Shown here piece after piece: positions 10,651-21,417 of a DNA stretch of 64,000 nucleotides; position 1 is the stretch's first letter, and the number at the start of each line of letters is the position of its first letter. Both the position numbers and the translations under genes were made by a program. Under the pieces are notes generated by a model. That model was given only the letters and a program-made list of their open reading frames with translations, was not told the origin of the DNA and did not search any database. The DNA comes from Catellatospora sp. TT07R-123 (GTDB lineage: Bacteria > Actinomycetota > Actinomycetes > Mycobacteriales > Micromonosporaceae), in assembly GCF_018327705.1 (NCBI RefSeq), contig NZ_BNEM01000001.1, positions 310,001 to 374,000 of the forward strand. The letters are read 5' to 3'.

Positions 10651-11166
10651 TCAGGACACCCGCACCTGCGACCAGTCCAGGCCGTCGAGGTTGACCACGA
10701 TCGCCTCCTGCGTGGTACGGGCGATCACCACCACCGCCTCGGTGTCGGGGTCGGGGTTCTCCTCCCGGTGCGGCACGTACGGCGGGACGAAGATGTAGTC
10801 GCCCGGCCCGGTCCGCACCGCCGTCTCCACCGGCTCGTCGCCCTCCAGATCGAGGAAGACGAAGACCGGCGTGCCGGACACGACGAAGATCGCGGTCTCC
10901 GAGGCGCCGTGGTGGTGGTCGGCCGACCTGGTGGCGCCGGGAACGTGCGTCTGCCCCATCCACAGGTTCCGGGCACCCACCGTCTTGCCGCTGATCGCCT
11001 CCAGCCGCTTCATGCCCGGGGTCTGCGTCGTCTGCGACACCAGCCCCTCGGGGGCGACCCGGTGCAGGCGGCGGTGGAACGGGTCGATGTCGGCGGGCAG
11101 CAGCACGCCGCTGGGGGTGCGCAGCGGGCCGTCGGCGGAACCGGCGGGCACATGCAGGACGTTCAT
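10651..11166 (-). CDS. Cupin-domain protein, partner of the LysR regulator
   Basis: The 171-residue protein is a single cupin. Metal-ligand positions are visible as SADHHHGASETAIFV (His/His/Glu, about residues 84-96) and VPHREE (late His, about 132). The start at 11166 (MNVLHVP) is fixed by an AAGGAG box six bases upstream; a longer in-frame version would extend back into the LysR gene. It begins one base after the LysR stop, so the two form an operon divergent from the organosulfur genes. It could be a dioxygenase, isomerase or sensor; the sequence does not decide. Confidence 0.8.
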   Translation of the reverse strand: MNVLHVPAGSADGPLRTPSGVLLPADIDPFHRRLHRVAPEGLVSQTTQTPGMKRLEAISGKTVGARNLWMGQTHVPGATRSADHHHGASETAIFVVSGTPVFVFLDLEGDEPVETAVRTGPGDYIFVPPYVPHREENPDPDTEAVVVIARTTQEAIVVNLDGLDWSQVRVS

Positions 11167-11167
11167 C

Positions 11168-12055
11168 TCAGACTCCTTGAACGGCGAGGACACGCGCGAC
11201 GGCGCCGGCCGGCGGCAGGACCCGGCGCAGCGACTCGGCCGCCCCTGCGACGAGGTCGGCGCGCAGACCGCGCCGCGCCCGCACCGACAGCGGCAGCGGC
11301 AGCACCGGCGGCAGGTCGTCGCGCGCGACCAGCCCCTGCGGGGTCTGGCCGAGGGTGGCCATCAGCCCCACCCCCAGCCCCGCCTGGACGGCCGCCTGCA
11401 CCCCGGCCAGGTGCGCGGCCTCGCAGCCGACCTCCGCCGGCAGGCCGTACTCGGCCAGGGTGTCCAGGGCGCGGGTGCGCAGCGCGCACGGCGCGTCGAA
11501 GGCCACCAGCGCGATCGGCCCGCCGTCTCGCGGCGGGTGCCAGCCGGGCGCCGAATACCAGGTCAGCTCCAGTTCCCCGACGGTCTGCGCATCGGGGTCC
11601 CCGGCCGGGCCGAGCAGCAGTGCCAGGTCGATGCGGCCGTCGGCCAGGCCGGTGCGCAGCTGCGCCCCGCGGTCGATGCGGAACCGTACCCGCCAGTCCG
11701 GGAACGTGTCGGCCAGCGCGCCGGACAGCTCCGGCAGCAGCTGCGCCGCCGCGTGCTCGGTGGACCCGATGACCATGGCCCGCTCGGTGTCGATCCCGAA
11801 CCCGCGCAGCGCCTCGTCGTGTACGGCCAGGATGCGCCGGGCCTGGCGCAGCAGCGCCTCCCCCGCCGCCGTGAACCGCGAGCCGCGGCCCTGCCGCTCC
11901 ACCAGCGGGCGCCCGACAGCCGTCTCCAGGCGGCGCACGTGCTGGCTGATCGCGCCCTGGCTCAGGTGCAGCGCGGTGGCCGCGCGCTGGAAGCCGCCGC
12001 AGTCCGCGACAGCGACGAAGCTGCGCAGCGGGGCGATGTCCAGGACGCGGCTCAT
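11168..12055 (-). CDS. LysR-family regulator of the organosulfur operon
   Basis: The 295-residue protein has an N-terminal winged helix (FVAVADCGGFQRAATALHLS then GAISQHVRRLE, about residues 12-45) and a LysR substrate-binding domain with the HEAAQL-like turn and DLALLLGPAG. Starts at 12055 and 12061 are both possible; 12055 has better spacing from AGG. It is divergent from the LLM monooxygenase operon. A strong inverted repeat in the gap (12118-12153) is its probable site, so it is most likely the CysB-like activator or repressor of that operon. The inducer is unknown. Confidence 0.88.
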   Translation of the reverse strand: MSRVLDIAPLRSFVAVADCGGFQRAATALHLSQGAISQHVRRLETAVGRPLVERQGRGSRFTAAGEALLRQARRILAVHDEALRGFGIDTERAMVIGSTEHAAAQLLPELSGALADTFPDWRVRFRIDRGAQLRTGLADGRIDLALLLGPAGDPDAQTVGELELTWYSAPGWHPPRDGGPIALVAFDAPCALRTRALDTLAEYGLPAEVGCEAAHLAGVQAAVQAGLGVGLMATLGQTPQGLVARDDLPPVLPLPLSVRARRGLRADLVAGAAESLRRVLPPAGAVARVLAVQGV

Positions 12056-12117
12056 GACCATGAGCCTAAGGGCGGGATGAGCACGGATTATGAACGCCGT
12101 TTCACGGGTTTCGAACA

Positions 12118-12153
12118 CCCATCACGGATCGTGATGGGTCGCCATCACGATCC
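12118..12153. promoter_or_regulatory. Probable LysR binding region
   Basis: CCCATCAC-N5-GTGATGGG is a perfect inverted repeat at 12118-12138. GGATCGTGAT (12126-12135) also pairs perfectly with ATCACGATCC (12144-12153). The interleaved dyads lie in the divergent gap between the LysR gene and the leader peptide, as expected for recognition and activation sites. Together with the leader peptide and attenuator region they account for the 400-bp stretch without large genes. Confidence 0.55.
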
Positions 12154-12195
12154 ATTGTTGGACATCGTGGCTGCTCGGAGCCCAGACTCGTTCCC

Positions 12196-12276
12196 ATGAG
12201 CCGCCCAGTCGCCGTGTTGCTGACACGCCGCCGCTGGCTCGACAACGCCCGCAACGGCGCGACGCTCTGTCGCTGA
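12196..12276 (+). CDS. Sulfur-type attenuator leader peptide, 26 residues
   Basis: ATG 12196 opens a 26-codon frame whose product runs MSRPVAVLLTRRRW then LDNARNGATLCR, ending in Cys-Arg-stop (TGT CGC TGA). The block L-T-R-R-R-x-x-D followed by a penultimate Cys matches the short 'putative leader peptides' that precede cysteine and organosulfur genes in actinobacteria. These are thought to act by ribosome stalling at the Cys codon when cysteinyl-tRNA is scarce. It lies 185 bp before the LLM monooxygenase, with GC-rich hairpins in between. The sequence match is clear; attenuation itself is inference. Confidence 0.75.
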   Translation: MSRPVAVLLTRRRWLDNARNGATLCR

Positions 12277-12461
12277 CCCGGCCACGGCGCTGATCGAGCG
12301 CCAGCCCGTCCCGCCCGCGCCCCGGGCCCGCCCGCACCGCCGCGAGCACCCCACCTGATTCCAGCCATGTCCGCGTGCCACGCGGCCGACGGCTGCCTCC
12401 CGTGCCCGCCGCCGCGGCGGACCCGGCTTCTTGCGCACCTCACTGCCTGAAAGGCGTACCC
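12277..12461 (+). promoter_or_regulatory. Candidate attenuator leader of the LLM/ABC operon
   Basis: Between the leader peptide and the monooxygenase start, several hairpins can form: GGCGCT-gatcg-AGCGCC (12286-12302), CCGCGT-gcc-ACGCGG (12371-12385) and a GC palindrome near 12408-12422. There is no classical U-tract. The arrangement fits ribosome-mediated control coupled to the Cys-bearing leader, but the alternative structures need folding analysis. Confidence 0.45.
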
Positions 12462-13832
12462 ATGACTCAGCGCACCCTGAAACTCGGCGCCGTGCTGCTC
12501 GGCGTCGGCGGCCCCGGCCAGCACCACACCTGGCTCAGCCCCGAGATCCCCGGCGACGCCAGCGTCGACATCCGCTGGTACATCGCCCGCGCCCAGCAGG
12601 CCGAGGCGGCCGGCTTCGACCTGGCGTTCATCGTGGACAGCCAGTTCATCACGCCGGACTCGCCGCACCACTACCTGAACCGGCTGGAGCCGCTGACGCT
12701 GCTGTCGGCGGTGGCCGTGCACACCAGCCGGATCGGGCTGGTCGGCACGCTGACGACCTCCTACAACGACCCGTTCAACATCGCCCGGCGGCTGGCCTCG
12801 CTCGACCTGATCAGCGACGGCCGGGCGGGCTGGAACGTGGTGGCCACCGGCGACGGCGGCACGGCCGGCAACTACGGCCGCGACGAGCACTACGACTACG
12901 CCACCCGCTACGGCCGGGCGCTGGAGCACGTGCGCGTGGTGCAGGGCCTGTGGCAGTCGTACGAGGACGACGCGTTCCCGCGCGACAAGGAGCAGGGGGT
13001 CTTCTTCGACCGCGGCCGCCAGCACCGGCTGGACCACGTCGGGCAGCACTTCTCGGTGGTCGGGCCGCTGAACATCCAGCGCTCGCCGCAGGGGCAGCCG
13101 GTCATCTTCCAGGCCGGGGACTCCCACGAGGGTCGGGACCTGGGCGCGAGCATCGCCGACGCGATCTTCACGCACGCGCAGACGATCGAGCAGGGGCAGG
13201 CGTTCGCCCGCGACATCCGGGCGCGGGCGGCCGCGCTGGGCCGCGACCCCGACCAGATCGTGATCTTCCCGGGCATCAGCCCGATCATCGCCGACACCGA
13301 CGCGCAGGCCCGGGAGAAGGAGCAGGAGATCCTGGGCGGCAAGAGCTTCGACCGGGCCCTGGCCGAGCTGGGCCGCCCGTTCGGCTGGCACGACCTGTCC
13401 CAGTACGACCTGGACGCGCCGTTCCCGGACCTCGGCGACCTCGGCGACCGCAGCTTCAAGACGCAGGCCGAGAAGATCAAGAAGCTGGCCCGCGACAACG
13501 GGCTCACGCTGCGGCAGGTCGTGCAGCACCAGCTCGACGCGCGCCGCTCGCCGTTCGTCGGATCGGCGGCGACGGTGGCGGCCGAGATCGAGCGCTGGTT
13601 CCGGGCCGGGGCCTTCGACGGGGTGAACATCACCGTCACCGTGCCCAGCGAGTTCGCGCGCTTCACCGACGAGGTGCTGCCGATCCTGCGCGAGCGCGGC
13701 GTCGTGCGCACCGGCTACGCCGCCTCGACGCTGCGCGGCAACCTCGGCCTGCCGATCCCCGAGAACACCCACACCACGGCCCGGCGCACCGCCGCGCAGC
13801 AGGCCGACCGCACCCCCACCCTCGTCCCGTGA
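12462..13832 (+). CDS. LLM flavin-dependent monooxygenase (NtaA/SnaA/DszA type)
   Basis: The 456-residue protein belongs to the nitrilotriacetate/dibenzothiophene-sulfone class of FMNH2-dependent two-component monooxygenases: LTLLSAVAVHTSRIGLVGTL, DLISDGRAGWNVVATGDG and DEHYDYATRYGRALEHVRVV. It would use reduced FMN from a separate reductase, not seen nearby, to oxidise a carbon-sulfur or carbon-nitrogen compound. The start at 12462 follows GAAAGG; the frame is open further upstream without support. Its place behind a Cys-type leader and before an ABC transporter argues for desulfurisation of an imported organosulfur compound. Confidence 0.9.
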   Translation: MTQRTLKLGAVLLGVGGPGQHHTWLSPEIPGDASVDIRWYIARAQQAEAAGFDLAFIVDSQFITPDSPHHYLNRLEPLTLLSAVAVHTSRIGLVGTLTTSYNDPFNIARRLASLDLISDGRAGWNVVATGDGGTAGNYGRDEHYDYATRYGRALEHVRVVQGLWQSYEDDAFPRDKEQGVFFDRGRQHRLDHVGQHFSVVGPLNIQRSPQGQPVIFQAGDSHEGRDLGASIADAIFTHAQTIEQGQAFARDIRARAAALGRDPDQIVIFPGISPIIADTDAQAREKEQEILGGKSFDRALAELGRPFGWHDLSQYDLDAPFPDLGDLGDRSFKTQAEKIKKLARDNGLTLRQVVQHQLDARRSPFVGSAATVAAEIERWFRAGAFDGVNITVTVPSEFARFTDEVLPILRERGVVRTGYAASTLRGNLGLPIPENTHTTARRTAAQQADRTPTLVP

Positions 13833-13861: not shown

Positions 13862-15379
13862 ATGAACCTCGTACGACGAAGCAGACAGCTGGCCGCGGCC
13901 GCGGCGGCGGTACTGGCGCTGGCCACGACCGGCTGCGCCGGCGACGCCGGGTCGGCCGCCGGCGAATCCACGCTGCGCTGGGCGGTCGCGCTGCCCGCGC
14001 ACTGGGATCCGGTGGTCAGCGGCAGCGGCGCCCAGTTCCGGATCCTGTCGCTGGCGTACGCGTCGCTGACCGAGATCGACGAGCAGGGCAGGGCGGTGCC
14101 GAGCCTGGCAAAGGGCTGGGACTACAACAGCACCGGCGACCAGGTCACCTTCCACCTGCGGCCGAACCTGAAGTTCAGCGACGGCGAGCCGCTGAACGCC
14201 CAGGCGGTCAAGCTCTACCTGGAGCGGGCCAAGACGCAGAAGAACTCCGCCCTGTTCGGCGACCTGACCTCGATCAAGGAGATCACCGCCTCCGGCGACC
14301 TGGACGTGGTGGTCAACCTGACCCAGGTGGACTACCAGATCCCGCTGCTGCTCGGCGAGCGCGTCGCGCAGATCACCAGCCCGAAGGCGGCGCAGGACCC
14401 GGTCAAGCTCGACCAGAACCCGGTCGGCGCGGGGCCGTTCACGGTGACCGAGTTCGTGCCCGGCTCCCACGTGTACCTCAAGAAGAACCCGGACTACTGG
14501 GACGCCGCGAACATCCACCTCGACCGGGTCGAGCTGCACGCCGCGCCGGACAGCGCCACGATCGTGTCCAGCCTCCAGACCGGCGTGTACGACCTGGCCT
14601 ACCTGGACGCGGCGCAGGTGAAGGCGGCCAAGGCCGCGGGCCTGGACGTGGTGCTGCAGCCGGGCTTCAACGCCTCCAACATCAGCATCAACGTCAACAA
14701 GAAGCCGTTCGACGACCCGAAGGTGGTCGACGCGGTCCGCTACGCCGTCAACCGACAGGAGTTCGTCGACAAGGTCACCTTCGGCTACGGCAAGGCGACC
14801 GACCAGCCGTTCCCGCCGGGCTACCTCGCCTACGACGAGAAGTCGGCCGGGCTGTTCCCGTACGACACCGCCAAGGCGAAGCAGCTGCTGGCCGAGGCGG
14901 GCTACCAGCCGGGGCAGATCAAGCTCGACCTGGTCATCCCGGCCCAGTCGGCGGCGGCGGAGATCGTGCAGGCCCAGCTCGCCGCCGTCGGCATCACTGT
15001 CAGCATCAAGGTCGACCCGAACTGGTCCACGCCGTTCTTCGCCAAGGACCTGACCCTGTCGCTGTACGGCACCACCGGCCGCGAGTCGCCGGTGCAGACC
15101 CTGACCGCCCACTTCGGACCCAACGGCCCGCTGAACCTGAGCACGCCGTACGAGCCGGAGGGGTTCGAGGCGGCGGTGTCGCTGGCGCGCCGGACGCCGC
15201 TGGACTCGCCGGACTACGCGGCGAACCTCCAGGCGGCCACCCGGGCCGGGCTGGCCAGCCGGGCGCTGGTGTTCACGTACGCCCCGACGAACATCTTCGT
15301 CAAGAGCACCCGGGTCTCGGCCCTGCCCGCCATCCCCGGCCAGCTCCACTGGACCGGCGTCACGGTGGCCGCGTCATGA
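13862..15379 (+). CDS. Family-5 ABC substrate-binding lipoprotein
   Basis: The 505-residue precursor has a lipoprotein signal (LATTGC, acylated Cys near residue 22) and the SBP_bac_5 fold of dipeptide, nickel and glutathione binders: VTFHLRPNLKFSDGEPLNAQ, VGAGPFTVTEFVPGSHVYLKKNPDYWD and the late RYAVNRQEFVDKV. It delivers its ligand to the two permeases that follow; the first overlaps its stop by four bases. In this sulfur context a glutathione-like or other organosulfur ligand is possible, but the binding pocket cannot be read from sequence. Confidence 0.92.
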   Translation: MNLVRRSRQLAAAAAAVLALATTGCAGDAGSAAGESTLRWAVALPAHWDPVVSGSGAQFRILSLAYASLTEIDEQGRAVPSLAKGWDYNSTGDQVTFHLRPNLKFSDGEPLNAQAVKLYLERAKTQKNSALFGDLTSIKEITASGDLDVVVNLTQVDYQIPLLLGERVAQITSPKAAQDPVKLDQNPVGAGPFTVTEFVPGSHVYLKKNPDYWDAANIHLDRVELHAAPDSATIVSSLQTGVYDLAYLDAAQVKAAKAAGLDVVLQPGFNASNISINVNKKPFDDPKVVDAVRYAVNRQEFVDKVTFGYGKATDQPFPPGYLAYDEKSAGLFPYDTAKAKQLLAEAGYQPGQIKLDLVIPAQSAAAEIVQAQLAAVGITVSIKVDPNWSTPFFAKDLTLSLYGTTGRESPVQTLTAHFGPNGPLNLSTPYEPEGFEAAVSLARRTPLDSPDYAANLQAATRAGLASRALVFTYAPTNIFVKSTRVSALPAIPGQLHWTGVTVAAS

Positions 15380-16374
15380 GCGGCGCCGGGCTGGGCACCG
15401 CCCGGCTGCGCCGGGCCGCTGGACGGACGGCCGCGGTGGCGGCACGCTCGATCGCGATCTTCGTACCGGTGTTCGGAGTGGCGACGTTCGTGACGTTCGC
15501 GCTGCGCGCGCTGAGCGGGCTCAGCCCGGCGCACCTGCAACTGGGCGAGTCGGCGACCCCGGAGTCGCTGGCCCGCATCGAACACGAGTGGGGCCTGGAC
15601 CGGCCCTTCCTCACCCAGTACCTGGACTGGTTCGGCAAGGTGCTGTCCGGTGATCTCGGCACCAGCTGGTACAACGGCGCCGACATCGCGCAGCTGCTCA
15701 CCGAGGGCGCGGTGATCAGCCTGTCGGTCGCCGGGCTGGCCCTGCTCATCGGGGTGGTGTTCGGGTTCGGGTTCGGCATCCTGGCGGCGCTGCGGCGCAC
15801 CACCTGGGTGGACCGGGTGATCACCGGGGCGATGACGTTCATCTCGGTGATGCCGTCGTTCGTCGTCGGCATCGCGCTGGTCGCCGTGTTCGCCGTCGGG
15901 CTGGGCTGGCTGCCGTCGGCCGGGTGGGTCCCGGCCGAGCGCGGCTTCGGCGTATGGCTGGCGCACATCACGCTGCCGGCGATCGCGCTCAGCTTCGACA
16001 CCGTCTCCGACGTGGCCCGCCAGCTGCGGGCCGGGCTGGTCGCGGCATACCGGGAGAACTACGTGACCGGGGCCGTGGTGCGCGGCCTCGGCCCGCGCCG
16101 GATCTTCTTCGGGCACGTGCTGCGCAACGGCATCGGCCCGGCGCTGACGGTGCTCGGGCTGAAGTTCCCGAACCTGCTGGGCGGCGCGGTCGTCACCGAG
16201 GCGGTCTTCGGGATGCCGGGGTTCGGGCAGTTCGCCGCGGCGTCGGCCCAGCGCGGCGACGTGCCCGCGGTGCAGGGCGTGCTGGTCGTCTCGATCGTGC
16301 TGGTCGTCGTCTTCAACCTGCTGGTCAACCTCATCCTGGCCCGGCTCACGCCCGCCTCGGCCAGAGGGGTCTGA
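15376..16374 (+). CDS. ABC permease 1 (DppB/OppB type)
   Basis: The 332-residue inner-membrane protein has six predicted spans. It shows the family start (IAIFVPVFGVATFVTFALRAL), the HEWGLDRPFLTQYLDW periplasmic loop and the cytosolic EAA-type loop AAYRENYVTGAVVRGLGPRR near residue 225 that docks the ATPase. It overlaps the binding-protein stop (ATGA) and pairs with the next permease. Confidence 0.93.
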   Translation: MSGAGLGTARLRRAAGRTAAVAARSIAIFVPVFGVATFVTFALRALSGLSPAHLQLGESATPESLARIEHEWGLDRPFLTQYLDWFGKVLSGDLGTSWYNGADIAQLLTEGAVISLSVAGLALLIGVVFGFGFGILAALRRTTWVDRVITGAMTFISVMPSFVVGIALVAVFAVGLGWLPSAGWVPAERGFGVWLAHITLPAIALSFDTVSDVARQLRAGLVAAYRENYVTGAVVRGLGPRRIFFGHVLRNGIGPALTVLGLKFPNLLGGAVVTEAVFGMPGFGQFAAASAQRGDVPAVQGVLVVSIVLVVVFNLLVNLILARLTPASARGV

Positions 16375-16375
16375 C

Positions 16376-17251
16376 GTGGTACGCCGCCTGCTCAGCCTCG
16401 CCTCCGGCCGCATCGCCGCCGCCATCCTCATCCTCATCGCGCTGCTGGCGCTGCTCGGGCCGCTGCTGGCCCCGCAGGACCCGCTGGCAGGCAGCGCCGA
16501 CATCCTCGCCCCGCCCGGGGCGCACCACTGGCTCGGCACCGACTACCTCGGCCGGGACGTGTTCAGCCGGCTGCTGGCCGGGTCACGGCTCAGCGTGCTG
16601 GGCGCGGTCCAGGTCACCGTGATGGCGCTGCTGGTCGGGGTGATCCCCGGCATCCTGTCGGTGTACCTCGGCCGCGCCTTCGAATGGGTCACGCTGCGGC
16701 TGGCCGACACCCTGATCGCGCTGCCGTTCCTGGTCTTCGCCGTCGCCGTCACCGCGCTGCTGGGCAACGGCATCCCGCAGGCCATGCTCACGGTCGGCAT
16801 CATGGTCTCGCCGCTGTTCTACCGGGTGGCGCGGGCCGCGACCCTGTCGGTGGCCCGGTCGCAGTACGTCGAGGCGGCGATCGTGGCCGGGGCGTCGGTC
16901 GGCTGGATCGTGCGCAGGCACGTCTGGACGAAGGTGCTGCCGCCGATCGCGATCGCGCTGGCCCACACCACCGGAGTCGGGTTCGTCGTGGTGTCCAGCC
17001 TGACCTTCCTCGGCATCGGCGTACGCCCGCCCGCGCCGACGTGGGGCGGGATCCTCGCCTCCGACCTCGGGTTCCTCAGCTACCGGCCGTGGGCGCCGCT
17101 GCTGCCCACCGCTCTGATCATGGCCACGGTCTGGGCCTGCAACCTGCTGGCCGACGCGATCCGCGACGTCTCCGGCGAAGCGGGCCGGGCCCTGCTGAAC
17201 ACCAGGAAGCTGCGCGGCCGCCTCGCCGCCGCCGGAAGGGGTGCCGCATGA
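16376..17251 (+). CDS. ABC permease 2 (DppC/OppC type)
   Basis: The 291-residue partner permease starts at GTG 16376, one base after the previous stop. It has the DppC hallmarks GAHHWLGTDYLGRDVFSRLL near residue 43 and the EAA loop SQYVEAAIVAGASVGWIVRR near 162, with six membrane spans. Its stop overlaps the start of the first ATPase. It forms the heterodimeric channel with permease 1. Confidence 0.93.
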   Translation: MVRRLLSLASGRIAAAILILIALLALLGPLLAPQDPLAGSADILAPPGAHHWLGTDYLGRDVFSRLLAGSRLSVLGAVQVTVMALLVGVIPGILSVYLGRAFEWVTLRLADTLIALPFLVFAVAVTALLGNGIPQAMLTVGIMVSPLFYRVARAATLSVARSQYVEAAIVAGASVGWIVRRHVWTKVLPPIAIALAHTTGVGFVVVSSLTFLGIGVRPPAPTWGGILASDLGFLSYRPWAPLLPTALIMATVWACNLLADAIRDVSGEAGRALLNTRKLRGRLAAAGRGAA

Positions 17252-18096
17252 GCAGCGCCGTACTGCGCCTGACCGACGTCCGGGTCCGCGACGCCGTCGG
17301 TGACCGCGACGTCGTGCACGGCGTGTCGTTCGCGCTGACACCGGGCAAGGTGGTCGGCATCGTCGGCGAGTCCGGCAGCGGCAAGACGCTGACCTGCCGG
17401 GCCATCCTCGGCATCCTGCCCGAGCACTTCAGCGTCGGCGGCGGCTCGATCGAGCTGGCCGGGCGGGACACGTCCCGGCTGACCCCGCGCGAGTGGACCG
17501 GGCTGCGCGGGGCGACCGTCGGCGCCGTGTTCCAGGACCCGGCGTCCTATCTCAACCCGTCCATCCGGGTCGGCGCCCAGGTGGCCGAGGTCGTCCGGGT
17601 CAAGAAGGGCCTGACCCGGCGCGAGGCCCGGCGCCGGGCGGTGGAGCTGCTGGGCGCCGTCCGCCTGCGCGATCCGGAACTGGTCTACCGGCAGTATCCG
17701 CACGAACTGTCCGGCGGCATGCTCCAGCGGGTCCTGATCGCGGCCGCGATCGCCGCCGACCCGCAGCTGCTCATCGCCGACGAGGCCACCACCGCGCTGG
17801 ACGTCACCGTGCAGGCCGAGATCCTCGATCTGCTCACCGACCTGCGCGAACGCACCGGCCTCGCACTGATCGTGGTCTCCCACGACCTCGCGGTGGTCGC
17901 GCAGCTGTGCGACGAGGTCCTCGTCATGCGGGCCGGGACCGTCGTCGAGCAGGGCCCGACCGCCCGCGTGCTCTACGACCCGCGCCACGAGTACACCCGG
18001 CTGCTCATCGCCGAGCACGAGCAGTACGGCCTCGACCGCTTCCTCGCCCCCGCCGCCGAACCCGTCCCCAGCAAGGAGCTCGACCATGTCGGCTGA
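17248..18096 (+). CDS. ABC ATPase (DppD/OppD type)
   Basis: The 282-residue ATPase has Walker A GESGSGKT near residue 38, Q-loop VFQDPASYLNP, signature LSGGMLQR, Walker B LLIADEATTALD and the H-loop SHDLAVV. It lacks the C-terminal extension with iron-sulfur cysteines seen in some OppD proteins. The start overlaps the permease stop by four bases, and the next ATPase overlaps its end by 11 bases. Confidence 0.93.
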   Translation: MSSAVLRLTDVRVRDAVGDRDVVHGVSFALTPGKVVGIVGESGSGKTLTCRAILGILPEHFSVGGGSIELAGRDTSRLTPREWTGLRGATVGAVFQDPASYLNPSIRVGAQVAEVVRVKKGLTRREARRRAVELLGAVRLRDPELVYRQYPHELSGGMLQRVLIAAAIAADPQLLIADEATTALDVTVQAEILDLLTDLRERTGLALIVVSHDLAVVAQLCDEVLVMRAGTVVEQGPTARVLYDPRHEYTRLLIAEHEQYGLDRFLAPAAEPVPSKELDHVG

Positions 18097-18919
18097 TCCC
18101 CGCCCGGTGCTCCAGGTGACCGGGCTGGACGTGCACTACCGCCGCGGCACCGGGCGGCTGCACGCCCTGCGCGGTGCTGACCTGACGGTGGCCCCCGGCG
18201 AGACCGTCGGCGTGATCGGCGAGACCGGTTCCGGCAAGTCCACCCTGGCCCGCGCCGTGCTCGGCCTGGTCCGCCCGTCGGCGGGCCGGATCGTGGTCGC
18301 CGGTGAGGACGTCACCGGGCACTCGGCCCGGCAGTGGCGCGCCCTGCGCCGGCGCGGCGTGCTCCAGTACGTCTTCCAGGACCCGCTGCGCAGCCTGGAT
18401 CCGGACCTGACCGTCGCCGACTCGCTCGTCGAGCCGCTGCTGATCCAGGGCCGCACCCGCGCCGCCGCCACCGCACGCGCCCAGGCGTACCTGGAGCGGG
18501 TGCACCTGGACCCGGAGCTGCTGACGCGGCTGCCCGGCCAGCTGTCCGGCGGCCAGCGCCAGCGGGTCGCGGTGGCCCGCGCGCTGGTCACCGACCCGGA
18601 GCTGGTCATCCTCGACGAGCCGGTGAGCGCGCTGGACTCCGCCAACCGGGTGCGGGCGCTGGAGCTGCTCAAGGAACTGCGCGCCGGCGGGGCGGCGCTG
18701 GTGTTCATCTCGCACGACCTCGGGTCGGTGGCCGGGATCGCCGACCGGATCGCGGTGCTGTACCAGGGCCGCGTGGTGGAGACGGCCCCGGCCCGCGACC
18801 TCGTCGACTCCCCGCAGCACCCGTACACCCGCCTGCTCGTCAGCTCGGCGCCGACGCTCAGCTCGGCGGCGGGCGACCGCGCCCGCCGCGAGGCGCTGCG
18901 CGAACTCCTGCACGTCTGA
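18086..18919 (+). CDS. ABC ATPase (DppF/OppF type)
   Basis: The 277-residue second ATPase has Walker A GETGSGKS near residue 45, Q-loop VFQDPLRSLDPDLTV, signature LSGGQRQRVAVARAL, Walker B LVILDEPVSALD and the oligopeptide-type tail HPYTRLLVSSAPTL. It completes the five-gene importer of the LLM operon. Confidence 0.93.
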   Translation: MSADPRPVLQVTGLDVHYRRGTGRLHALRGADLTVAPGETVGVIGETGSGKSTLARAVLGLVRPSAGRIVVAGEDVTGHSARQWRALRRRGVLQYVFQDPLRSLDPDLTVADSLVEPLLIQGRTRAAATARAQAYLERVHLDPELLTRLPGQLSGGQRQRVAVARALVTDPELVILDEPVSALDSANRVRALELLKELRAGGAALVFISHDLGSVAGIADRIAVLYQGRVVETAPARDLVDSPQHPYTRLLVSSAPTLSSAAGDRARREALRELLHV

Positions 18920-18937: not shown

Positions 18938-18994
18938 ATGGCCCGTCAACTCAGAACCACCCGGCACACCGCGCTGGTCGAGGCGGGTGCCTGA
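18938..18994 (+). CDS. 18-residue ORF coupled to the flavoprotein monooxygenase
   Basis: A strong GGAAAGGAG ribosome-binding site precedes ATG 18938. The frame encodes MARQLRTTRHTALVEAGA and its TGA overlaps the ATG of the flavoprotein monooxygenase (TGATG). It is Arg-rich at the front, like sulfur leader peptides, but lacks a Cys. It may simply load ribosomes for the downstream gene, whose own start has no good binding site. I do not recognise the peptide. Confidence 0.5.
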   Translation: MARQLRTTRHTALVEAGA

Positions 18995-21417
18995 TGGGTG
19001 ACGTCCGTTTCCCCACCGGCGAACCGCCCGCCGAGACCGACGTGCTCATCGTCGGGGCGGGCCCGGTCGGCCTGTCGGCCGCCGTCGAGCTCACCGCCCG
19101 CGGTGTCTCGGTCGCGGTCGTCGACGCCGCCACCGAGGCGACGCTGGTCCGGGCGGGGGCCATGGGGCACTCGCCGCGTACGGTCGAGCATTTCCGGCGC
19201 TGGGGGCTGCTTCAGCAGATCCGGACCGCGTGGACGTTCCCGCCCGAGTGGAACCGGGGCATCCGGCTGGCGACGTCGCTGGCCGGGCACGACCTGGTCG
19301 CCGACGGCGAGCGGCGGCAGCCGCCGGGCTTCTCGCTGGCCCGGCCGATCCGCCGCCCGCAGACCGCCCTGCAGCAGGTCTTCCTCGACCACCTGCGGCT
19401 GCACGGGGTGCCCGTGAGCGGCGGGTGGCGGGCCGTCGGGCTGGCCGACACCGGTGCCGACGTCGAGACGTCCGTGTCGTCGGCCGGGCAGGCGCGCACC
19501 ATCCGGTCCCGCTACGTGATCGGCGCGGACGGCGGCAGCAGCACCGTGCGCCGACTGGCGGGGATCGAGCGCGAGGGCGAGCACGCCACGGAGAAGATGT
19601 TCCGCCTGATCGTCCGGCACGCGCCGGGTGCGCTCGGAGCGGCGCCCAGCGGCACCAACATCGTCTTCAACGGGCGGGCGTCGGGGTTCCTCGCCGCGAT
19701 CAGCCCGACCGAGTGGCGCGTGTACGCCGGGCCGTACCCGCTGGACGCCGAGCCGGCCGAGGCGGAGCTGCTGGACGTCGCGCGGGCGGCGTTCGGGGTG
19801 GCCGAGCTGGAGCTGGAGCTGGCGTCGAGGACCACGTACCACCAGGCGACGCGGATCGCGGCGACGTTCCGTCAGGGACGGGTGCTGCTGGCCGGGGACG
19901 CCGCGCACGTGCGCACCCCGGGCGGCAACCTGGGCGAGGGGTTCGGCGACGTGGCCAACCTGGGGTGGAAGCTGGCGGCGGTGCTGGCCGGGCACGGCGG
20001 CGACGGGCTGCTGGACTCCTACGACGCCGAGCGGCGCCCGCACAACCAGCGGGTGGCCGACCACGCGCTGGCCTCGGCGCGGCGCTCACGGGAGCTGCTG
20101 GCGCGGATCCGCGACGGCGGAATCCCCGACGACGCCGACGACGGCGCCCCGGCGCGGCGGCGGCGGGGTGAGATCGCCGAGCTGCTGAGCGCGCAGCCGC
20201 GCGGAGAGGCTCCCGGAGTCCTGTTCGACGAGCGCTACGACGACTCGGGGGTGGTCTGGTACGGGACCGGGCAGCTCGCGGCCGAGCGGCCGTGGGCGGC
20301 ATCGGTGTACGAGGACGATCCGCGCCCCGGTCACCGGGCCCCCGACCTGTACGTGGATCCGTGGGGCGACACCCTCTACGACCGGCTCGGGGTCGGCTTC
20401 GGGTTGCTGATGGCCGCCCCGGACGCCGCGGTGGAGCAGGAGTTCGCCGCGGCGGCGCAGGACCGGGGCCTGCGGTTGTCGGTGGTGCACCTGCCCGAGG
20501 GCCCGGCCCGCGAGCGCTACGGCGAGGGCGCGGTGCTGGTCCGGCCGGATCAGCACGTCGCCTGGCGGGGCCGGGTGCTGCCGCCCGGTGGTGCCGCCGC
20601 CGTCCTCGACCACGTCCTCGGCCTGCGGGCCGCACCCCAGGCGAAGGGCTCCGCCGTGTTCCTCGATTTCACCGGCCCGGCCGGGTTGCGCACCCGGGGC
20701 ACCGTCCTGATCGTCCCGGGCCGGGGCGAGAGCGCCTCGGGGTATGTCCGGCTGGGCAGCCGCCTGGCCGCCGACGCGTACCGGGTGCGGGTGGTGCTGC
20801 CGCCGGTGCTCGACGAGTCCGACGCGGACGGTGCGCTGGACCGGTTCGAGCCGGTGCTGGCCGAGGCGGTCGCGGAGCTCGGCGACGGGCTGGTGGCGCC
20901 GCTGGTGCTGGTGGGTGCCGACGCCGGAGCGGCGGTCGTCGGCGGCCTAGTGGCGCGGTCGGGTCCGGACGCGTCGTGGTGGCCCGCGGCGGTGGTGCTG
21001 GCCGGGCTGCCCGGGTATGGCGCGCACCGTACCGGTGGCTGGGAGGACGAACTGGACGGGCGGACGCACTGCCCGGTGCACCGGGGGGTGCTCGGCGGCG
21101 ATCCGGCGGTCAGGCCGGGGGCGCTGTCCGCGCCGGTGCCGTCGGCGCTGCTGGACGCGGCCTACCGGAGCAAGGCGGAGGTGGCGCACCTGATCCTGGC
21201 CGGTGACGCCGATCCGTACGCCGACCGGGAGCGGCTGGCGGAGCTGGCGTCGATCCTGCCGACGGCGCGGCTGGCGGTGGTCCGCGGTGCCCGCCATGAC
21301 GTGCTCAACGACGTGCAGCACCGGTCGGTGGCCGCCGAGGTGGTGGCCTTCCTGGAGGCGGTGCGGGCCGGCCGGCCGCTGGAGCCGATCGTGCAGGTCG
21401 AACGCAGCACCTGGTGA
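18994..21417 (+). CDS. FAD monooxygenase fused to an alpha/beta-hydrolase domain
   Basis: The 807-residue protein starts with a class A flavoprotein hydroxylase: FAD motif TDVLIVGAGPVGLSAAVEL (about residues 15-33), VIGADGGSSTVRRLAG (about 173-188) and GDAAHVRTPGGNLGEG (about 301-316). A second half follows from about residue 570. It resembles an alpha/beta hydrolase: GTVLIVPGRGESASGYVRL, a nucleophile-elbow-like LVGADAGAAVVGG with Asp instead of Ser, an acidic LAGDADPYADRE, and a late His in GARHDVLND. It could oxidise and then hydrolyse an organosulfur substrate. Long overlapping frames in this region are shadows. Confidence 0.85.
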   Translation: MGDVRFPTGEPPAETDVLIVGAGPVGLSAAVELTARGVSVAVVDAATEATLVRAGAMGHSPRTVEHFRRWGLLQQIRTAWTFPPEWNRGIRLATSLAGHDLVADGERRQPPGFSLARPIRRPQTALQQVFLDHLRLHGVPVSGGWRAVGLADTGADVETSVSSAGQARTIRSRYVIGADGGSSTVRRLAGIEREGEHATEKMFRLIVRHAPGALGAAPSGTNIVFNGRASGFLAAISPTEWRVYAGPYPLDAEPAEAELLDVARAAFGVAELELELASRTTYHQATRIAATFRQGRVLLAGDAAHVRTPGGNLGEGFGDVANLGWKLAAVLAGHGGDGLLDSYDAERRPHNQRVADHALASARRSRELLARIRDGGIPDDADDGAPARRRRGEIAELLSAQPRGEAPGVLFDERYDDSGVVWYGTGQLAAERPWAASVYEDDPRPGHRAPDLYVDPWGDTLYDRLGVGFGLLMAAPDAAVEQEFAAAAQDRGLRLSVVHLPEGPARERYGEGAVLVRPDQHVAWRGRVLPPGGAAAVLDHVLGLRAAPQAKGSAVFLDFTGPAGLRTRGTVLIVPGRGESASGYVRLGSRLAADAYRVRVVLPPVLDESDADGALDRFEPVLAEAVAELGDGLVAPLVLVGADAGAAVVGGLVARSGPDASWWPAAVVLAGLPGYGAHRTGGWEDELDGRTHCPVHRGVLGGDPAVRPGALSAPVPSALLDAAYRSKAEVAHLILAGDADPYADRERLAELASILPTARLAVVRGARHDVLNDVQHRSVAAEVVAFLEAVRAGRPLEPIVQVERSTW

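Follow-up and report, generated by a model that had tools for sequence, protein, structure and literature searches.

Cysteine-responsive leaderless ORFs with polycysteine tracts were described in mycobacteria (Shell 2015, PMC4633059), and a translation-attenuation reading of the M. smegmatis leader (Canestrari 2020) is cited in PMC13236596. Rho was suggested for mycobacterial cys leaders by Seliverstov 2005 (PMC1262725), and the Cys leaders ahead of cys operons in that paper resemble the one analysed here in being short ORFs with terminal cysteine and no terminator, but differ in their runs of Cys codons, their genes and their taxa. The uORFC-8-2 motif ahead of alphaproteobacterial cysS (PMC8632094) is likewise a Cys-codon leader, mostly with UGC and with an intrinsic terminator, whereas the present type has UGU and no terminator. 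Two curated models, NF042933 (Ms5788A family Cys-rich leader peptide) and NF042934 (cis_reg_atten, putative leader peptide), have in common with the present peptide an LTxRR..D..R....LC core, a cysteine near the end and sulfur genes downstream.

In the window (the whole 64,000-nt stretch analysed, from a genome of 9.17 Mb whose nearest named relatives are Catellatospora, Micromonosporaceae), a sequence-only reading had singled out a 26-codon frame with an L-T-R-R-R core, ending in Cys-Arg-stop, as a sulfur leader peptide ahead of an LLM monooxygenase operon. The ATG frame was found as read (codons 12196-12273, TGA 12274-12276), with a single Cys codon, TGT; 185 nt separate its stop from the LLM start codon (Table 1). 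Its assignment to the LTRRR-type sulfur leaders also stood, the peptide being conserved in relatives and heading an operon that fits sulfur scavenging. Judged by sequence comparison, the frame is a real and widely conserved actinobacterial leader, far beyond chance, and the LTRRR type, the conservation and the nature of the operon make cysteine-dependent control the best reading of leader and operon together. A role of the leader as cysteine sensor is considered very probable, and the fuller description as a translated, probably leaderless, cysteine-sensing ORF, in which the output step is left open, is considered likely.

Table 1. Features of the leader locus and further leaders of the same genome
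Feature	Position	Strand	Basis or remark
Divergent LysR-family regulator, as called	11168-12118	-	Start probably Met at 12055, by comparison with relatives
Inverted repeat CATCAC-GGATC-GTGATG, likely piece of a LysR-type operator	12120-12136	.	Inferred
Conserved block CATCACGATCCATTGTTGGAC, operator-like, plus -35-like TTGGAC	12143-12163	+	TTGGAC at 12158-12163
-10-like CAGACT	12183-12188	+	7 nt ahead of leader ATG
Leader ORF MSRPVAVLLTRRRWLDNARNGATLCR-stop	12196-12276	+	ATG frame, relatives, coding conservation
Sensor codon TGT (Cys25)	12268-12270	+	16 codons past Leu of LTRRR
Untranslated spacer, C-rich, G-poor, unconserved, terminator-free	12277-12461	+	
LLM flavin monooxygenase, NtaA/DmoA family (TIGR03860)	12462-13832	+	480.7 bits against cut-off of 279.7
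Extracellular solute-binding protein, GsiB/NikA-like	13862-15379	+	
ABC transporter permease (BPD_transp_1)	15376-16374	+	
ABC transporter permease (BPD_transp_1, OppC-type)	16376-17251	+	
ABC transporter ATPase, OppD/NikD-like	17248-18096	+	
ABC transporter ATPase, OppF-like	18086-18919	+	
FAD-dependent monooxygenase, possibly last operon gene	18994-21417	+	
Leader ahead of 3-mercaptopyruvate sulfurtransferase-like gene	C1:4186343		
Leader ahead of sulfite reductase, cysH, chelatase	C2:3857258	-	
Divergent leader VELTRLFTARLHVDLRRQASSLCPR (L081), ahead of arylsulfatase-like and EgtB/formylglycine-generating-enzyme-like genes	C2:2731747-2731800		

The comparison with annotated sulfur leaders gave a divided outcome. 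Relatives of the window peptide match NF042933 and NF042934, but the peptide itself, which has one Cys and carries Trp-Leu in place of Ala-Val, gave no match to either model up to E 10, below the curated cut-offs, and is therefore not filed in them; a sister leader scored 15.6 bits against a cut-off of 45, and one leader of the same genome exceeded the cut-offs of both models. With the mycobacterial polycysteine leaderless ORFs the window leader probably shares a leaderless start, to which the predicted promoter geometry is suited, and it shares the position of Cys codons near the end, a sulfur operon downstream and a UGU at equal distance from the LT motif; it differs in the operon, in giving no consistent sign of binding-site masking when folded and in having a single cysteine, not a polycysteine tract. 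Compared with published polycysteine tracts, a lone cysteine two codons ahead of the stop makes a weaker sensor.

On sequence criteria, the window leader is one of a wide group of actinobacterial sulfur leader ORFs, defined here by the motif L-T-x-R-R-x2-D-x2-R-x5-C, with Cys 16 residues past Leu, which the window peptide carries, and by sulfur-acquisition genes downstream, which were found for the set and, in the window, are represented by an LLM gene of the family that holds sulfur-cleaving enzymes. Three further leaders were found in the same genome with the profile and NCBIfam models (Table 1), and with an E threshold of 0.001 profile A2 had matches in 227 of 295 genomes belonging to the class. 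Forty class-wide stretches were hand-picked from the match list and are not a random sample. Of 67 class-wide leaders, 60 had a callable gene downstream (seven gave no gene by the criterion used); these genes comprised 27 rhodanese, 26 DUF4395, two molybdopterin oxidoreductases resembling sulfite dehydrogenase, one TauD and one SsuA-like gene, the remainder being mostly solute-binding proteins. Single-cysteine leaders missed by the curated models are widespread, and a monooxygenase-transporter operon would be added to the genes under cysteine-leader control. As a separate observation, DUF4395 follows the leaders (L043, L048 and L050, and class-wide) about as often as rhodanese, which suggests a sulfur role for this family. 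The divergent leader L081 places a cysteine leader on a sulfatase operon, the formylglycine-generating name being our own reading of the matches.

For codon-level comparisons, 112 distinct leaders were assembled (42 ahead of LLM genes, 67 class-wide and three from the same genome; duplicates L185 and L212 removed), with positions numbered from the Leu (0) of LTxRR. The Cys at +16 was found to be encoded by TGT in 167 of 168 distinct leaders ahead of unrelated sulfur operons, a count of sequences related by descent and not of independent trials: 111/112 in this collection, 30/30 in the Mycobacterium-type set and 27/27 in the sulfite-reductase-type set (one shared with the 112), the sole exception being L197, with TGC. 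The Mycobacterium-type set was reduced from loci L231-L290, of which L255, L275, L287 and L289 lacked the pattern and the other excluded ones were repeats, genome G152 being probably a Mycobacterium, judging by its polycysteine leaders; the sulfite-reductase-type set was reduced from 30 loci, two of them repeats and one (L320) without the pattern. The Leu-to-Cys distance served as registration frame in all three sets, and a profile search that did not demand this distance returned the same spacing (L168, L193, L205 and L220 being re-registered).

TGT is a rare codon in the genes of the window (5 of 123 Cys codons, or 3 of 119 under a stricter filter) and across all LLM loci (42/407). Clean contrasts come from three other leader positions at which Cys is mostly TGC, namely at +9 (TGC 46 and TGT 5 in the 112 leaders; TGC 27/27 in mycobacteria), at +14 outside mycobacteria (TGC 16, TGT 2) and at +15 in mycobacteria (TGC 27/28). 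Nevertheless, TGT is also common elsewhere in polycysteine tracts, with +14, +17 and +18 likewise mostly TGT in the mycobacterial ones, and in the Frankia-type LTCC motif; for their other cysteines within the 16 codons preceding the sensor, the 42 LLM leaders use TGT 25 times and TGC 15 times. The codon rule is consequently strict at +16 only. No statement of the UGU rule was found in the literature searched, which did not cover Canestrari 2020, so that it may already be in print; it is the part of the analysis that a specialist may find surprising, and with a synonymous codon so strictly kept at one position, the sensing step can be probed by a single base change.

A single tRNA-Cys (anticodon GCA) decodes both UGC and UGU, the latter by G-U wobble. 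The UGU rule points to a codon-specific pause of the ribosome, and a codon-level cause fits it best, since the codons neighbouring the +16 Cys vary, selection for a local fold is not seen and the modelled pairing of the U differs by group. The number of residues between Cys and stop also varies (0 to 9 in 111/112 leaders, 23 in one), whereas the Leu-to-Cys spacing stays fixed, which suggests, but does not prove, that the nascent peptide contributes to pausing. It is put forward tentatively, short of being the probable explanation, that the conserved nascent peptide sets the ribosome to pause and that the wobble-read UGU acts as a charging-sensitive, nascent-chain-assisted hungry codon for which UGC is no substitute. 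Other causes of the codon preference were considered and rejected. A local hairpin is present at the sensor codon of the window (GCGAC-GCTCT-GTCGC), but across the leaders no selection beyond the codons was found. Pairing as the reason for TGT was set aside: models put the U in a base pair in some Micromonosporaceae and leave it free in many loci of Frankia and Actinokineospora, and replacement of TGT by TGC changed the local fold by a mean of -0.45 kcal/mol, with individual leaders shifting either way (more stable in 58 of the 112, less stable in 32 and equal in 22). Pairing of the Asp7 codon with GUC, considered on paper only, would give three base pairs, and an A follows TGT in 4/112 leaders. 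A +1 slip at CTC-TGT would yield no fusion, because the +1 frame of the window stops (by eye) at about 12359, well short of the LLM gene.

Under a shortage of Cys-tRNA, the ribosome would stop at codon 25, its A site holding the UGU and its upper exit tunnel the conserved L-T-x-R-R...D...R segment, and the operon would stay on; with ample cysteine, it would complete the leader and depart, leaving a naked C-rich spacer on which Rho could end transcription ahead of the LLM gene. Rho as the output step is the least certain part of this scheme and is offered as a serious candidate, not as the established answer. The spacer composition (C 0.457, G 0.291) shows C above G in 42/42 LLM loci, and class-wide the same was found in 62/67 leaders over the 60 nt past the leader versus 29/67 upstream; however, the LLM gene itself has a weaker bias of the same sign over its first 90 nt (C above G in 38/42), and the C-rich, G-poor spacer may therefore be said to favour Rho only moderately.

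Translational attenuation, in which a stalled ribosome breaks a structure hiding the ribosome-binding site of the first gene, as put forward for polycysteine leaders of mycobacteria, is the strongest of the alternatives and is nonetheless regarded as less likely than not here. Masking of the binding site is reportedly what Canestrari 2020 argued for the polycysteine leader of M. smegmatis, and the Mycobacterium-type leaders share the geometry and the UGU position with the present ones. Thermodynamic folding of 38 LLM loci (the 42 less four that had no assigned start) showed no consistent effect of this kind, the modelled access of the binding site being 0.343 when free and 0.366 when a ribosome occupied the Cys codon, with better access in 13/38 loci, and the spacer ranges from 77 to 358 nt across the LLM loci without a conserved fold. 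A ligand-dependent arrest peptide of the TnaC kind, in which the nascent peptide would sense cysteine or another metabolite and stall when it is high, could draw on the conserved residues at a fixed distance from the sensor codon, yet it is improbable: the variable distance from Cys to stop makes release at a fixed stop unlikely, and decoding by tRNA better accounts for the codon rule.

A transcription attenuator of the classical kind, built on hairpins that compete and an intrinsic terminator, is very improbable despite a high-GC spacer that allows many possible hairpins. No terminator-like site was found in 12050-12600, and a T5 run between the Cys codon and the gene occurs in 1/42 LLM loci. 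The sequence-only reading had held that hairpins in the 185 bp past the leader could switch with ribosome position, but this claim was not sustained by any excess of structure, terminator or covariation: the fold of 12196-12480 was indistinguishable from 200 shuffles (z = -0.06), the consensus fold of five relatives carried a covariation penalty of +4.92 kcal/mol, and an Rfam search of the region gave no match reaching the gathering score. An intrinsic terminator paired with an alternative hairpin is thus not what the locus presents.

As far as sequence can tell, the leader is translated. Asp at +7 is kept in 112/112 leaders with a free third base (GAC 81, GAT 31), Arg at +10 in 109/112 with four codons in use and Leu at 0 in 108/112 with six, and the amino-acid identity of the core is 0.588 in frame but falls to 0.365 and 0.311 when the alternative frames are read. 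A chance short frame, of the sort that GC-rich frames yield in numbers, or an RNA-level conservation without link to translation, is hardly credible in view of amino acids held while third bases vary, of the same motif ahead of many unrelated sulfur genes and of a mean local-hairpin z of -0.00 (42 LLM leaders) and +0.35 (67 class-wide leaders), which gives no sign of hairpin selection.

Peptide relatives were found at E < 0.001 (2e-9 to 4e-4 per genome) in nine other genomes among the 150 family genomes searched, a tally that rises to 80 genomes, mostly noise, at E up to 1; the same gene follows the leader in 11/11 aligned relatives, one of which (L049) has a weak peptide match and was included after inspection. 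Twelve aligned LLM proteins served for a scan that gave 80 loci, and the leader profile matched ahead of the LLM gene in 34 of them, from the genera Catellatospora, Asanoa, Phytohabitans, Catenuloplanes, Frankia, Jatrophihabitans, Pseudonocardia, Actinokineospora, Nocardioides and Kineosporia. Beyond these, L130 has a degenerate copy, and L120, missed by the profile, was found by the pattern only. After removal of repeats, including four of the 34 that had already been counted (L082, L086, L088 and L108), and addition of the first set, 42 distinct LLM loci carry the leader. Within Catellatospora, the LLM gene is present in 3/11 genomes and the leader in the same three. In the 80-locus scan the leader was absent ahead of LLM relatives that are more distant, among them those of proteobacteria, and it was absent in several near relatives (Hamadaea, Actinoplanes), though a divergent gene is kept. 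The Actinoplanes loci L084, L087, L089 and L092 retain both the LLM gene and a close divergent gene, the leader having been lost or never present.

The leader is probably leaderless, with a transcript predicted to begin at or beside the ATG, because in 33/42 loci the start expected from the conserved promoter falls on the ATG: TTGG lies 37-38 nt ahead of an in-frame ATG in these, as against 1.5% in shuffles. The relatives have an ATCAYGA block upstream and a -10-like CATACT, CATGCT or CAGACT that ends 6-7 nt from the ATG. The block ATCAYGA...GTTGGAC, between the LysR gene and the leader, co-occurs with the leader in 33/42 loci, and the stretch between the LysR gene and the -35 element would be the natural place for a putative LysR operator. 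Control by the leader independently of the LysR regulator, as proposed from the sequence at first, is for this reason unsupported; with the block sitting where a LysR operator is expected, the two controls probably act in series on one promoter, at which the divergent LysR would set initiation.

The operon fits sulfur scavenging as judged from its gene content: under cysteine starvation, the cell would produce a transporter together with monooxygenases able to release sulfur from organic compounds. Among PDB chains, the LLM enzyme is close in sequence to those labelled nitrilotriacetate monooxygenase and YtnJ, with its best PDB match (3sdo) annotated as nitrilotriacetate monooxygenase. YtnJ is taken here to be the same protein as CmoJ. 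Enzymes of the CmoJ type free N-acetylcysteine sulfenic acid from S-alkylcysteine sulfoxides in the S-alkylcysteine salvage of Bacillus (PMC10863075). The predicted role of the operon is to take up and cleave an organosulfur substrate, which may be an S-substituted cysteine or a peptide conjugate. In two relatives (L033:9733-11073 and L041:5095-6429), another LLM gene of the NtaA/DmoA type lies past the transporter genes, at the place held in the window by the FAD-dependent monooxygenase. On the other side of the promoter, a cupin gene (10651-11193, minus strand) adjoins the LysR gene, with similar-sized genes there in several relatives, and is possibly a member of the same regulon.
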